Source of the DNA: a virus
Length of the DNA: 46,450 nucleotides
Direction: 5' to 3' (one strand)
IMG/VR virus record: IMGVR_UViG_3300025141_000180
Span: 1-46,450 of that record
The position numbers and the translations under genes are program-made. Each line of letters starts with the position of its first letter. The first letter of the stretch is position 1. Under the pieces are notes generated by a model. The model saw only the letters and a program-made list of their open reading frames with translations, searched no databases and was not told where the DNA came from. Positions 2,994 through 25,900 of this stretch are shown here, in pieces.

Positions 2994-3115
2994 CTGACCA
3001 CATTGTTAAGACAGGCAAGTAACCGTGCGTGAAAATCTAAACGAATCCTTAGAATCCCTGTCCTTTTTTCAAACCCCAGGTTCAACCAGGACAATGAAGA
3101 AAGTGAAAACAACCC
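2994..3115 (+). other. intergenic stretch with weak terminator-like pairing
   Basis: GACAGG at 3010-3015 can pair with CCTGTC at 3057-3062, which is followed by a T run (3064-3069). TGTCCT at 3059-3064 can instead pair with AGGACA at 3088-3093. The two pairings exclude each other and the first has a 41-base loop, so a terminator is possible but not convincing. I see no gene here beyond a 15-codon frame at about 3094. Confidence 0.3.
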
Positions 3116-3153
3116 TTGACAGTCACAATCCGTTGATATAAGATAGCTAATAG
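3116..3153 (+). promoter_or_regulatory. sigma70-type promoter P2
   Basis: TTGACA at 3116-3121, a 17-base spacer, then TAAGAT at 3139-3144 (4 of 6 to TATAAT), followed by CTAATAGAGA. It shares TTGACAGT and TAATAGAGA with P1. It lies about 30 bp upstream of the gene at 3174. Confidence 0.7.
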
Positions 3154-3173
3154 AGACACCCCAGGAGAACCCA

Positions 3174-3410
3174 ATGCCCATACAATCCCAGACCCCATCA
3201 CCTGTGCCACCCCCCATCACAGACTTCACCGCTGTCGGTGTGGTCGAGGGCTGGCTCGACTCCGAGAGCGAAGAGGAGGTCATCGCCGCATGGCAACACC
3301 TCATCAACACTGGCCTAGCCTGGAGGCTTCAAGGCTGGTTCGGTCGCACCGCTCACGCACTTATTACCACAGGCGTTTGTCAGACGAACGCTACTCAACA
3401 ACCTAGATAG
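3174..3410 (+). CDS. small conserved phage protein with WLDSESEEE / LQGWFGRTA motif (78 aa)
   Basis: The ATG follows CCAGGAG with 7-base spacing, directly downstream of promoter P2. The core, roughly residues 26-66, has the pattern EGWLDSESEEEVIAAWQHLI, then GLAWRLQGWFGRTAHALI. I recall this pattern from a widespread family of small phage proteins, annotated as a domain of unknown function (possibly DUF7417; not verified). The Pro-rich N-terminus looks disordered. The family is generally found in early or accessory regions. No function is established that I know of. Confidence 0.8.
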   Translation: MPIQSQTPSPVPPPITDFTAVGVVEGWLDSESEEEVIAAWQHLINTGLAWRLQGWFGRTAHALITTGVCQTNATQQPR

Positions 3411-3416
3411 TAGACG

Positions 3417-3596
3417 ATGAAAGGAACACATCCATGCTCTGACACTGACCACGACGGCGGTCACTCTTCCATGCGCTGGCCGCGCATGGGTTCAGATGCC
3501 CAGGCAGATCACCTGGGGTGGCCAGAGCATGGTTGTGTCCCTATCATCACAACAACCCCCAGGAGAATAAGACAATGCCTACCCGATTCATTCTAA
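3417..3596 (+). CDS. possible small Cys/His-rich protein overlapping the structured element (59 aa)
   Basis: An ATG-initiated frame of 59 residues (MKGTHPCSDTDHDGGHS at its start) covers the whole cloverleaf-like inverted repeat at 3423-3541 and runs 22 bp into the next gene. It has several His and two Cys that could bind metal. There is no convincing Shine-Dalgarno site before it, and the strong base-pairing constraint explains the sequence better than coding does. I list it as a doubtful alternative reading. Confidence 0.25.
   Translation: MKGTHPCSDTDHDGGHSSMRWPRMGSDAQADHLGWPEHGCVPIITTTPRRIRQCLPDSF
3423..3541 (+). ncRNA. cloverleaf-like structured RNA element (candidate)
   Basis: A 19-base arm at 3423-3441 is complementary to 3523-3541 at 17 of 19 positions; the exceptions are A3425/C3539 and T3431/T3533. 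It encloses three hairpins: 3446-3450 with 3459-3463 (5 bp, 8-base loop), 3469-3476 with 3482-3489 (8 bp perfect, loop TGGCC), and 3499-3504 with 3512-3517 (6 bp perfect, 7-base loop). Together these make a four-helix junction of 119 bases. It ends 19 bases before the AGGAG of the gene at 3575, so it may control that gene, protect or process the P2 transcript, or act as DNA cruciform. It lacks the arm lengths of a tRNA. I know of no matching family. Confidence 0.6.
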
Positions 3597-3916
3597 CCGT
3601 TGAAGTAATCAGTGACCGAGACCCTAGTGACCTGCTCGATGAAGTCATCGCGCTCGAACTAGACGACGTTGAGGTTGACGAGGACACCGCATGCGTCGAG
3701 GAGGTTGACCTCGCTGGCGTCGTCAGTGCCGCCGAAGACCTACTGCATGACCGCGCCCCGCACCTGCTAGGGTTCATGTGTCACCTGTTGCTTGACTGCA
3801 AGGTTGACGAGGCTGTGCTCCCCTACATCCTTTCCAAGCCATGGAAGTGGCAGACAGAGTACACACAATACGTTGCCTCTCTCAAGGGCTCAACGCCCAG
3901 TGAGAAGGTGGCATGA
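3575..3916 (+). CDS. acidic small protein of unknown function (113 aa)
   Basis: The start at 3575 follows CCCCCAGGAGAATAAGACA, which places AGGAG 9-10 bases upstream; the earlier in-frame ATG at 3518 lies inside the structured element. The product opens with a beta-strand-like segment (RFILTVEVIS) and has a very acidic stretch at about residues 20-45 (LDEVIALELDDVEVDEDTA), then a helical half with Cys residues and an aromatic C-terminus (KPWKWQTEYTQYV). The charge pattern would suit a host-protein-binding or DNA-mimic role, but that is inference. It follows the cloverleaf element directly. Confidence 0.72.
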   Translation: MPTRFILTVEVISDRDPSDLLDEVIALELDDVEVDEDTACVEEVDLAGVVSAAEDLLHDRAPHLLGFMCHLLLDCKVDEAVLPYILSKPWKWQTEYTQYVASLKGSTPSEKVA

Positions 3917-4004: not shown

Positions 4005-4184
4005 ATGATCGTCACACCCACACAACAGAAAGTTTTAGAGAACCTCACCCATGAACAAACCCTGATGAAACCCAGGCGAACCCTTCAGGCACTAGAGAAG
4101 AAGGGTCTGGTGGCAGGCAGCAAGCGCGGTGGCTGGAGCCTTACCGTAAGAGGAAGCGCATGGCTCGCCTGCCATAAGCATTGA
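4005..4184 (+). CDS. small winged-helix-like protein (59 aa)
   Basis: The ATG at 4005 is preceded by CCAGGAGCGCGACCGCT, so the AGGAG spacing is long and the start is less certain. The 59 residues read as a minimal winged helix: helices QQKVLENL and RTLQALEKKGLV, then the wing strands (GSKRGGWSLTVRGSAWL). A small DNA-binding regulator is therefore plausible. The TGA stop (4182-4184) lies inside the TTGACA of the next promoter, so the gene ends exactly where the small-RNA unit begins. Confidence 0.62.
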   Translation: MIVTPTQQKVLENLTHEQTLMKPRRTLQALEKKGLVAGSKRGGWSLTVRGSAWLACHKH

Positions 4185-4213
4185 CAAGCGATGCTAATAC
4201 ATGCTACTAATAG
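4181..4213 (+). promoter_or_regulatory. sigma70-type promoter P3
   Basis: Perfect TTGACA at 4181-4186, then TACTAA at 4205-4210 after 18 bases, overlapping the box CTAATAG (4207-4213) also seen downstream of P1 and P2. Only about 100 bases separate it from an intrinsic terminator, with no good gene in between. Confidence 0.65.
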
Positions 4214-4214
4214 T

Positions 4215-4319
4215 GCAACCGTTGGGATGCGGTTAAGGGGAGTTTGGGTACTCCTGGGGTAGTGAGGTACTCTGAGCCCGTCGCGGATCCTCCTGGGCCA
4301 CGGCGGGCTCTTTCTTTTT
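4215..4319 (+). ncRNA. candidate phage small RNA or attenuator leader
   Basis: The segment lies between promoter P3 and an intrinsic terminator and can fold into three successive hairpins: AACCG 4217-4221 with CGGTT 4230-4234; GGAGT 4239-4243 with ACTCC 4250-4254; and the terminator stem 4274-4283 with 4301-4310. The only frames in it are short and lack ribosome-binding sites. It may be a stand-alone RNA of about 105 bases, or a leader whose readthrough controls the gene at 4329. I know of no family that matches. Confidence 0.55.
4274..4319 (+). terminator. intrinsic terminator
   Basis: GAGCCCGTCG (4274-4283) pairs with CGGCGGGCTC (4301-4310) over 10 bp with one G-T pair and a 17-base loop, followed at once by TTTCTTTTT. 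It is the best factor-independent terminator in the window and sits just upstream of the GGAGGT site of the next gene. Confidence 0.85.
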
Positions 4320-4328
4320 GGAGGTAGC

Positions 4329-22900: not shown

Positions 22901-25900
22901 TAGCTCTGCTCGCAAGTAAGAGCGTCCCTCATCAGGTGCGTCGAAGGACCTAATCACAAGCCTTGGACCCTTCTCATCGTACCAGACAAGAGGGTTTCTC
23001 TTGTACTGAGACCCCCAGGCAACGGCCCGTGCGTCTGCCAACTCCATTACGCTCTCGACCTCTACTCCAGAAAGCCTTTCTTCTGCGAGCAACTGGTCAA
23101 CGAGGAGCCCTCTTTTCTTGAATCCATTAGCCATCAAGGTAACGTCAGGGGACCGAAGTGCCTTGGCCAGCCATCTAGCAACCTTGCCCTCACGACCCTC
23201 TGCTACCCTGCCTACCCACTGAGACAGGCTTTGGCCCACCCCAGGGGGAGCGTAGGCCTTTAGAGCGGCAGGAGCGTCTATACTGCCTCCTCTCACTATA
23301 GATGGCTTCCGCTTGATCTCTGCTGCGGCTTTCTCCAGGCTGGTAGCGATCTCATCGAGCGACTCCCGTGAGGCCTTAGTCACTGCTTTTTGTCTTGCTA
23401 TTTTAACCCTGGCTTGAGCCAGTGAGGTCTCTGCTGTTTTTAGCTTTAACGCTACCGTTCCTGCCTTGGGCTTTGCTAACCCTGGAACGTCTTTCCTGAG
23501 ATTGATCGCTACCTGTAGGTCTTTTTTTGCAGCGTTAAACGCCGAAAGAACACCAGCGCGGGCCTCGTTAAGAACCTCTGATTGCTCGATGATTGCCCGG
23601 TAGTTCGACAGGCGTATCTGCGCGTCCTTGAGCCCTCGGATATTCCGGTACCGTTTCGCCGCTTCAGCAAACGCAGGGTCCAGGTTCTTCATGGCCTTGT
23701 CCCAGTCACGAAGGTACTTGCTTAGGCCTGTTTTGTTTTTGCTGCCCTTGATTAAGATTCTAAGTTTAGTCCTTTCCTTTTCGATAGCCTTTTCTTTTTT
23801 CTTGTTGGCCCTGCGAAAGGCGTCTGCCTCCTCCCTGGCTGCGGCTTTCTTTCTTTTAATCGCCTCTTTCGCATAGTATGATTCTGGCTGAGTTGCCTTG
23901 GGAGGCATTGCCCCTGATGCCGCATCAGAGGCCTTGGTTTTTTTGGTTTTACGGGCAGGAGTTACGACAGAAGCGCCCAGGTCAATGAGTCTTTGTCTCG
24001 ATGCCCTAATCTCTGCGCTACGCGTGGCGATGTCTTGGGCTATTTGCTGGGCACGTATAAGCTCTGGGACGTTCTTCTTTTTGTTTATGTCGGCCCCGTC
24101 AATCTGCTTTTCGATGGCTAGTGTTACGGTGTCAAGGTCTTCGTCAACGGCCTTAAGGCTCACTCCTCTTTCCAGGTCGAAGGGGTTCTGTTTCTCCGGG
24201 TTCCAGCGCCTAGTGAATGGAGACTTCCAGGACTTGACTGACAGGGGAAGGTCCTCAAGTGGCATGTCTTTTAGGTACTGAAGATATATCTTGGATAGCT
24301 GCTCCAGTTCAGCCGCAGCCTCTGCCTCAATAATAACGGCCTCTGCAATGCGGGCCTTTGCAACGCGGTACTTTGCTTCCGCAAGCGCCTTCTGCTGAAC
24401 AAGCGCCACCTCTTCGGGGGTGCCTCCCTTTATTACAGTCGTTCCCCTTGTGTGTTCAAGGACCCCAATCCTTGACTTGGTATCAAGGATCTCGGCGGTG
24501 AGGCGCTCCTCGTCCTTGATGGCCTGGATGTATTCGTTGCGGATGATCTCCAGGTCGGCCTTGGCTGACTCATTAAAGCCAAGCTTCCGATGCACATTTA
24601 GGTTGTACGTGCCGGTTATCGCAGCGTTCTCAAGTTCCTTATTCAGGAAAGCCACAGCCTCTAGTGGGTCTTCAAACTTGTCCGCATCTCGCACCACCTT
24701 GGCCCACTTATTAAGAGACCTGGTTTTTACAAACGCGTTTCCCATCTCACTGATCTTGCCTATAGATCCAAGCCCCAGGCCTATGACACTAGGCTCCATA
24801 AAGACAACAGGCATCGCTAGAAGAATGTGGCTTGCCTGTCGGATTGTTCGGCTGGGGGGAGGTTTGTTGCCTGTCACCATCTCGTGGGCAGCCCTGATGG
24901 TGTTATCCATGTTTACGCCGATCTCCGGGTTGAAGATCAGGCTACCACCTGTGCGTAAATAAGTTAAAGACGGCTGGCTCCACATTTCTGGGATGGACTC
25001 CCCTATCCGTTCCAGCCCCACACTCAGAGTGTGCATAGGAACATGCACACTCTGAGAAGGGGCTGCATGTTCCTGCCCTCTCACCCAAGCGCCGAAAAGA
25101 GCACTCAAGGGAAAACCTGCGCGGGTCAGATAAGCTAGAGGAGACTCTGTCTCTATGTGCATCTTGCCCCAGTAGGGCTGCTCATGGGCTGCTATTGGGA
25201 GCATAACAGCAGCCAGAGCTTTCATAGGTCCAGGCAAGTTGGGGTTGTTCATTAGCCAGGTGTCCTGGCTGTCCTTCCAGAGCAGGACCTTTCCTCTACC
25301 CATATTGTAGATAGCAAGAAGCTTATCGCCTGCCCATATCTCTGCCCGTTCCTGCAGGACCTTGGTCGCCTCGAACTTCTCAACCTCGGTCATAGTGGCA
25401 AGATCCTCTGCGTTGTCTGCCGCTAGTCGGTCGAATCTCGACTGAATGAGCTTGTGTCTTATTTTTGATGCGTTTAGTCCTGTCTTGCCTGGGCCTGTAA
25501 GGCGCGTGTAGGGGGCCTGTAGGTCTAGCATTGCTGCTGGGTCGCCTAGTAGGTACCTATAATAGTCCTGCATGCGGTAGTACGGTCCTGAGTAAAACTT
25601 ACCAGGATTGGCCAGCTTGATACGCATGTTCTGAGCCCATTCAGATGTAGAGACATCCGCGTGACCATAAAGCCCTGGCTTTCCAGCCTTGCGGGCCTCT
25701 ACTTCTTCTCCCTGGTTCCTAACGAAGGCCTGCCAGGACTCGGCTTCCATCACCTTGGCGAGTTCTTCCAGGAGGATCTTGTCTACGATGTCGCCGTTTT
25801 CTAGCCTCTCTACTTCAGCTTCTGCCTCTTCAGGGAGCGCGACAGGCTGGCCAAGGGCTGACCATCTAGCCGACCACAGGTCTCGTATAATCAAAGCGAT

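Follow-up and report, generated by a model that had tools for sequence, protein, structure and literature searches.

An imperfect palindrome with the potential to fold as a cloverleaf between two small early genes of a phage contig

Genomic context of the element

The window considered here is the whole 46,450-nt stretch of the IMG/VR record IMGVR_UViG_3300025141_000180, a virus contig that encodes a terminase, a portal protein and a major head protein; the relatives of the terminase are weak and come from mixed hosts. The early region of this contig contains an imperfect palindrome of 133 nt, hereafter the element, which is flanked by two genes on the same strand, one for a DUF7417 protein and the other for a small acidic protein, with a promoter-like site upstream (Table 1). 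Two sites of this kind occur within 1.8 kb, where shuffled sequence predicts 0.7, and they are identified by consensus match only. The DUF7417 gene is a common one, with 391 candidate stretches in IMG/VR that encode relatives. The acidic protein is 74% identical to its counterpart in the sister contig L004 and shows a weak 40% identity to one in L005; the gene has no PHROG match, and the longer frame that encloses it (3518-3916) has no Pfam match. Genes for a ResIII-type helicase and a VapE-like protein lie 1.3-5 kb from the element.

Table 1. Features of the element and its surroundings (positions in the window)
Feature	Position	Strand	Basis
Sigma-70-like promoter TTGACA-17-TAAGAT, presumed for the unit of DUF7417 gene, element and acidic gene	3116-3144	+	10/12 consensus positions
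Upstream gene, 78 aa, DUF7417 / phrog_3908	3174-3410	+	PF24192 E 6e-9; phrog_3908 E 4e-11
Element: imperfect palindrome, 133 nt, cloverleaf / four-way junction possible	3416-3548	.	Repeat and fold analysis
Closing stem, left arm, 26 nt; plus-strand mismatches A.A, A.C, T.T	3416-3441	+	Inverted-repeat search
59-codon ORF, judged spurious	3417-3596	+	Codon score, no Shine-Dalgarno, no relatives
Hairpin 1, TGACC/GGTCA, 5 bp on plus; a G.U pair lengthens the minus-strand version	3446-3463	+	Folding
Hairpin 2, CCATGCGC/GCGCATGG, 8 bp, loop TGGCC	3469-3489	+	Folding
Hairpin 3, CCCAGG/CCTGGG, 6 bp on plus; 7 bp on minus with a U.G pair	3499-3517	+	Folding
Closing stem, right arm, 26 nt	3523-3548	+	Inverted-repeat search
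AGGAG, Shine-Dalgarno of the acidic gene; lies beyond the stem	3561-3565	+	Sequence
Downstream acidic gene, 113 aa, ATG at 3575	3575-3916	+	Relatives in L004, L005

An earlier note on this DNA, made from the sequence alone, had placed the structure just upstream of the ribosome-binding site of the acidic gene, and this position is borne out, the AGGAG motif beginning 12 nt beyond the stem. The suggestion in the same note of a translational switch that hides the ribosome-binding site fared less well: when 261 nt of context are folded, the cloverleaf persists and the Shine-Dalgarno sequence takes no part in it. The note had also found no other gene convincing in the region. The 59-codon ORF reads open across the whole palindrome, but its codon score, at -0.15 bits per codon, falls below those of six small genes of the region (+0.01 to +0.46) and close to the average of off-frame stretches (-0.22). 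Moreover, it lacks a Shine-Dalgarno sequence, runs into the following gene in a different frame, has no match in Pfam or PHROG, and no protein relatives were found in viral or genome contigs. On these sequence grounds, we regard the element as non-coding.

The Shine-Dalgarno leaders of the early genes are nearly identical to each other (CCCAACCCCAGGAGCATGACATG), and AATCCCAACCCCAGGAGCATGACATGA is present in five near-identical copies (223-249, 533-559, 771-797, 1162-1188 and 1535-1561), each of which comprises a Shine-Dalgarno sequence and the start codon of an early gene. Such repeated leaders could serve as recombination points for the swapping of gene cassettes.

Geometry and stability of the fold

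The arms of the element form 23 Watson-Crick pairs over 26 positions (88% complementary, with a spacing of 81 nt), and on the plus strand the only interruptions of the closing stem are three 1x1 mismatches. The earlier note had described the core of this arrangement, namely a closing stem with 17 of 19 positions paired (3423-3441 with 3523-3541) around hairpins of 5, 8 and 6 bp; all of these are recovered, the stem being longer than claimed. The judgement that such a repeat is very unlikely by chance was sound as well. The ungapped inverted-repeat score of 17 is the best in the window, compared to a maximum of 14 (mean 11.7, sd 0.9) in 60 first-order Markov sequences of whole-window length. 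Folding against shuffled controls, a check that the note had itself proposed, gave for 3423-3541 an RNA free energy of -63.3 kcal/mol (z -5.29) on the plus strand and -71.9 kcal/mol (z -7.63) on the minus strand; neither value was equalled by any of 200 shuffles. The structure is real, and chance is excluded as its source.

A GC-corrected scan of 120-nt folds across the 46 kb places the element first on each of the two strands, and none of the early intergenic stretches elsewhere in the window ranks with it. For the full 133 nt, the minimum free energy is -70.9 kcal/mol on the plus strand and -80.5 kcal/mol on the minus strand, and the low ensemble diversity (3.9 and 4.7, respectively) indicates that one structure dominates. 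Among 21,195 segments from 81 other phage loci, the strongest fold lies at -5.66 sd under a similar regression, the extremes there being terminators and other long palindromes; segments as stable as the element are rare, yet not unique.

With respect to strand, the minus-strand fold contains four G.U pairs, all of which correspond to A.C mismatches on the plus strand, and the plus-strand fold contains one; this asymmetry leans weakly to the minus strand, although it is only 4 to 1 and the best fold of either strand gathers its own G.U pairs. No promoter was found on the minus strand around the element, and no terminator flanks it on either strand. Folded as single-stranded DNA, the two strands of the element are about equally stable (z -6.78 and -6.48), so that sequence alone cannot separate an RNA structure from a DNA cruciform.

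Some further properties were considered and set aside. A resemblance of the arm to part of hairpin 2 (CCATGCTCTG/CCATGCGCTG), which might have pointed to internal duplication, is matched by 301 of 2000 structure-preserving shuffles and is not significant, and the count of palindromic tetramers within the element is unremarkable. An assembly artefact is unlikely: a chimera of inverted reads would leave the arms almost perfectly matched and would not produce independent hairpins inside them.

Several other structured stretches were seen, both in the window and in related phages. At 4183-4320 on the plus strand (3137-3300 of L004), a promoter-like sequence (TTGACA-like / TAATAC, recognized by eye) is followed by three 6-bp hairpins with the G-rich loops UGGGAU, UUGGGU and GUGAGG and by a T-tailed terminator-like site at 4295-4310. 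This stretch has a fold z of -2.91, has no credible Rfam match, and is 98% identical in L004, conserved where the cloverleaf is not; it is likely to be a small RNA or an attenuator leader and, as an RNA candidate of this region, may be preferable to the element. A perfect 14-bp hairpin (CTCAGAGTGTGCAT/ATGCACACTCTGAG, 6-nt loop) at 25023-25056, within a 10.6-kb gene for a 3534-aa protein, marks the region that ranks second in the window for fold stability. A long cruciform-like palindrome with TATATACCCCTTATAG arms, apparently located between divergent genes, occupies positions 6631-6760 of L045 and recurs in other DUF7417-bearing phages (L024, L040, L050, L053, L052, L064, L068 and L070); this set is suited to a covariation test. 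Finally, a very long GC-rich palindrome is found in similar phage contigs about 600 nt before the DUF7417 gene (L033 3641-3840, L031 3431-3620 and L039 near 3151); in L033 and L031, its 191-nt fold has a free energy of around -86 to -106 kcal/mol.

Searches for relatives and the sister contig

A search of Rfam 15, another check put forward in the earlier note, brought no family to threshold and no meaningful E-value, the matches up to E 10 being chance ones. ARAGORN found no tRNA or tmRNA at the element, and Rfam gave no tRNA or tmRNA match there either. In blastn comparisons to phages and plasmids, all matches had E-values of at least 0.01 and covered at most 24% of the query. The arm pattern yielded five matches, chance or unrelated, in the 2.9 million viral contigs of IMG/VR, and the outer-arm pattern yielded 15 there, with no comparable cloverleaf of similar sequence among them; back-translated probes of the whole element found nothing in IMG/VR or in the genomes of 84,980 prokaryote species. 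These pattern probes require exact short matches, so that a diverged family could escape them. A single-sequence covariance model of the minus strand, whose reach is limited to fairly near relatives, gave no match in 40 related virus records; among the collected loci it recovered only the window itself, on both strands, along with L101 and L092, which are unrelated long palindromes that score by base pairing alone. No comparable structure was found downstream of the DUF7417 gene at 79 loci of other phages, the best being a simple hairpin in L038, and the element occurs once in its own record. Thus, no homologue, and with it no compensatory base change, was found in any collection searched. Of the earlier note's suggestion of a new phage RNA, the non-random, non-coding structure in an early operon stands; its RNA nature is not established and a new RNA family is unproven.

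A scan of the 84,980 species for the arm pattern gave 19 matches, over half of which belong to one palindrome family. This family, GTTCCCATGCTCTGCGTGGGAATGC...GCATTCCCACGCAGAGCATGGGAAC, retrieved with CCATGCTCTG...CAGAGCATGG, is present in Pseudomonas, cyanobacteria and others, with 18 locations in one Pseudomonas genome and 26 in another. Its REP/MITE-like members resemble the element in being intergenic palindromes of 90-140 nt with nested hairpins and an identical 10-mer in the arms. In contrast, the arm of the element does not continue with GC[A/G]TGGGAA, the GACGCTCYGCGTC inner hairpin is lacking, and there is a single copy. Outside the 10-mer used as probe the similarity is not significant: when the ten arm bases were fixed and the remainder was shuffled with the structure preserved, 98 of 300 shuffles aligned to the family (GTTCCCATGCTCTGC...) as well as the element does, and an nhmmer search with the family profile gave no match at the element. 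This evidence rejects membership of the element.

The slot of the element is covered by one sister contig, L004 (IMGVR_UViG_3300033148_002686), which is 98.3% identical to the window over 2998-3412 (1537-1951 of L004) and about 89-93% identical in long stretches from 3583 onward. Between these, L004 carries two other ORFs, neither of which is the 59-codon ORF, and its acidic gene comes after these two genes; of the two related phages whose sequences span this slot, one thus has the element. In the window, TAGATAGTA is followed by GACGATGAAAGG...CATCACAACAACCCCCAGGAGAATA, and in L004 by ACCCCAGGAGAATA; in the window, about 143 additional bases cleanly separate TAGATAGTA from ACCCCAGGAGAATA. On the left, L004 resembles a clean empty site, with different genes following, and no target-site duplication was seen at the junctions in this comparison. 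Given that the element is missing from the sister slot although the sequence up to 3412 is 98% identical, it is a recently gained or lost cassette; the absence applies to this slot, as L004 is a partial contig of a phage that could carry a copy elsewhere.

The block of promoter and DUF7417 gene is 98.3% identical between phages that are about 80-93% identical elsewhere, which suggests that this module was recently exchanged between them.

Possible functions and parallels with known systems

The reading that we prefer, and hold tentatively at somewhat below even chances, is that of a cis-acting intercistronic structure of an early mRNA that would serve, before the acidic gene, either as a processing site of the RNase III type or as an insulator. 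A transcript would start at the promoter near 3116 and extend rightward across the DUF7417 gene, and its 3416-3548 part would fold into a long closing stem of nearly two turns topped by three hairpins, directly before an unstructured leader and the Shine-Dalgarno sequence of the acidic gene. Host RNase III would cleave this stem, or exonucleases would at least be impeded by it, such that the message of the acidic gene would be separated from that of the DUF7417 gene with its ribosome-binding site kept open, as in the intercistronic early-mRNA stems of T7. The plus-strand fold (z -5.29), which coincides with the top-ranking repeat and the top-ranking fold in the window, the same-strand gene pair behind a promoter-like site, the long stem interrupted by 1x1 mismatches only, the unpaired Shine-Dalgarno sequence and the failure to find a minus-strand promoter or an adjacent terminator all speak for this proposal. 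Against it stand the better minus-strand fold and the G.U asymmetry, the three internal hairpins, which are superfluous for a processing site, the restriction of the structure to one junction, and L004, which manages without the element at the same place.

A rival reading is a discrete non-coding RNA, about 120-135 nt long, that would act in trans or as an antisense RNA; perhaps transcribed from the minus strand or cut from the plus-strand transcript, it would operate from a variable accessory-gene slot as a decoy or regulator directed at host factors. Besides the minus-strand z of -7.63 and the four minus-strand G.U pairs that read as A.C on the plus strand, this possibility draws on the very low ensemble diversity, the accessory genes that the sister phage carries in the same slot and the lack of a coding signal. 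However, neither a minus-strand promoter nor an adjacent terminator was found, Rfam offers no match, the lack of a homologue leaves no covariation to call upon, and an asymmetry of 4 to 1 is slight; we consider such an RNA conceivable but unlikely. A more specific version, in which an undescribed structured phage RNA of about 120-135 nt, built around a four-way junction and possibly read from the minus strand, forms an accessory cassette next to the small early genes and acts in trans on a host factor, is quite unlikely. The roughly 143 bases by which the window cleanly exceeds L004 would fit a palindromic insert that landed after the stop codon of the DUF7417 gene and before the Shine-Dalgarno sequence, that is, a non-autonomous MITE/REP-like element or its relic; elements of this class are typically long, imperfect palindromes that contain nested hairpins, and the arm core CCATGCTCTG/CAGAGCATGG is common to the widespread family with many copies per Pseudomonas genome. 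Nevertheless, the likeness to that family beyond the 10-mer is at the level of shuffles (98/300), the target-site duplication is lacking, and the probes used found a single copy in the phage and none in the prokaryote species or IMG/VR, which makes an insert of this kind rather unlikely.

A function at the DNA level, whereby a cruciform or single-strand hairpin would serve as a replication origin, primosome-loading site or recombination site, is improbable. The equal single-stranded DNA folds of the two strands are what is expected of functional DNA, and the helicase and VapE-like genes are nearby; yet these two proteins are 98% identical in L004, whose slot lacks the element, so that an origin shared by the two phages is unlikely, and there is no clear GC-skew switch at 3.4 kb, nor were iterons or other copies seen. 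Highly improbable, finally, is a real small protein encoded by the 59-codon ORF with the palindrome as an incidental feature: the frame is open throughout, but this is offset by the missing Shine-Dalgarno sequence, the out-of-frame overlap, the off-frame codon usage and the lack of relatives, and coding sequence leaves the extreme fold unexplained.

As an orphan, the element does not yet support either of the strong claims, that of a discrete RNA or that of a processing device. Should it prove to be a discrete RNA, phage accessory slots, which are usually catalogued as sources of small proteins, would also carry swappable structured RNAs, and protein-based annotation would miss them.

Like the phage non-coding RNAs of Rfam and tRNA or tmRNA genes, the element combines a compact multi-hairpin structure with a location in a phage intergenic region, and it differs from them in having no family or ARAGORN match. 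A parallel to the intercistronic mRNA structure that we favour is the R1.1 site of phage T7, located between genes 1.0 and 1.1, where RNase III cuts structured RNA; this site is about 60 nt long and contains an asymmetric internal loop (PMC6121014). Sites of the R1.1 type and the element share the position of a structured RNA in a gap between same-strand early genes, before the next ribosome-binding site, and a long double-stranded stem, which in the element spans 26 positions with three 1x1 mismatches on the presumed transcribed strand. Unlike R1.1, the element is 133 nt long, has a four-way junction with three extra hairpins and is present at one junction only. If it functions as a processing or insulating stem, it would represent a more elaborate case of a known early-mRNA device.
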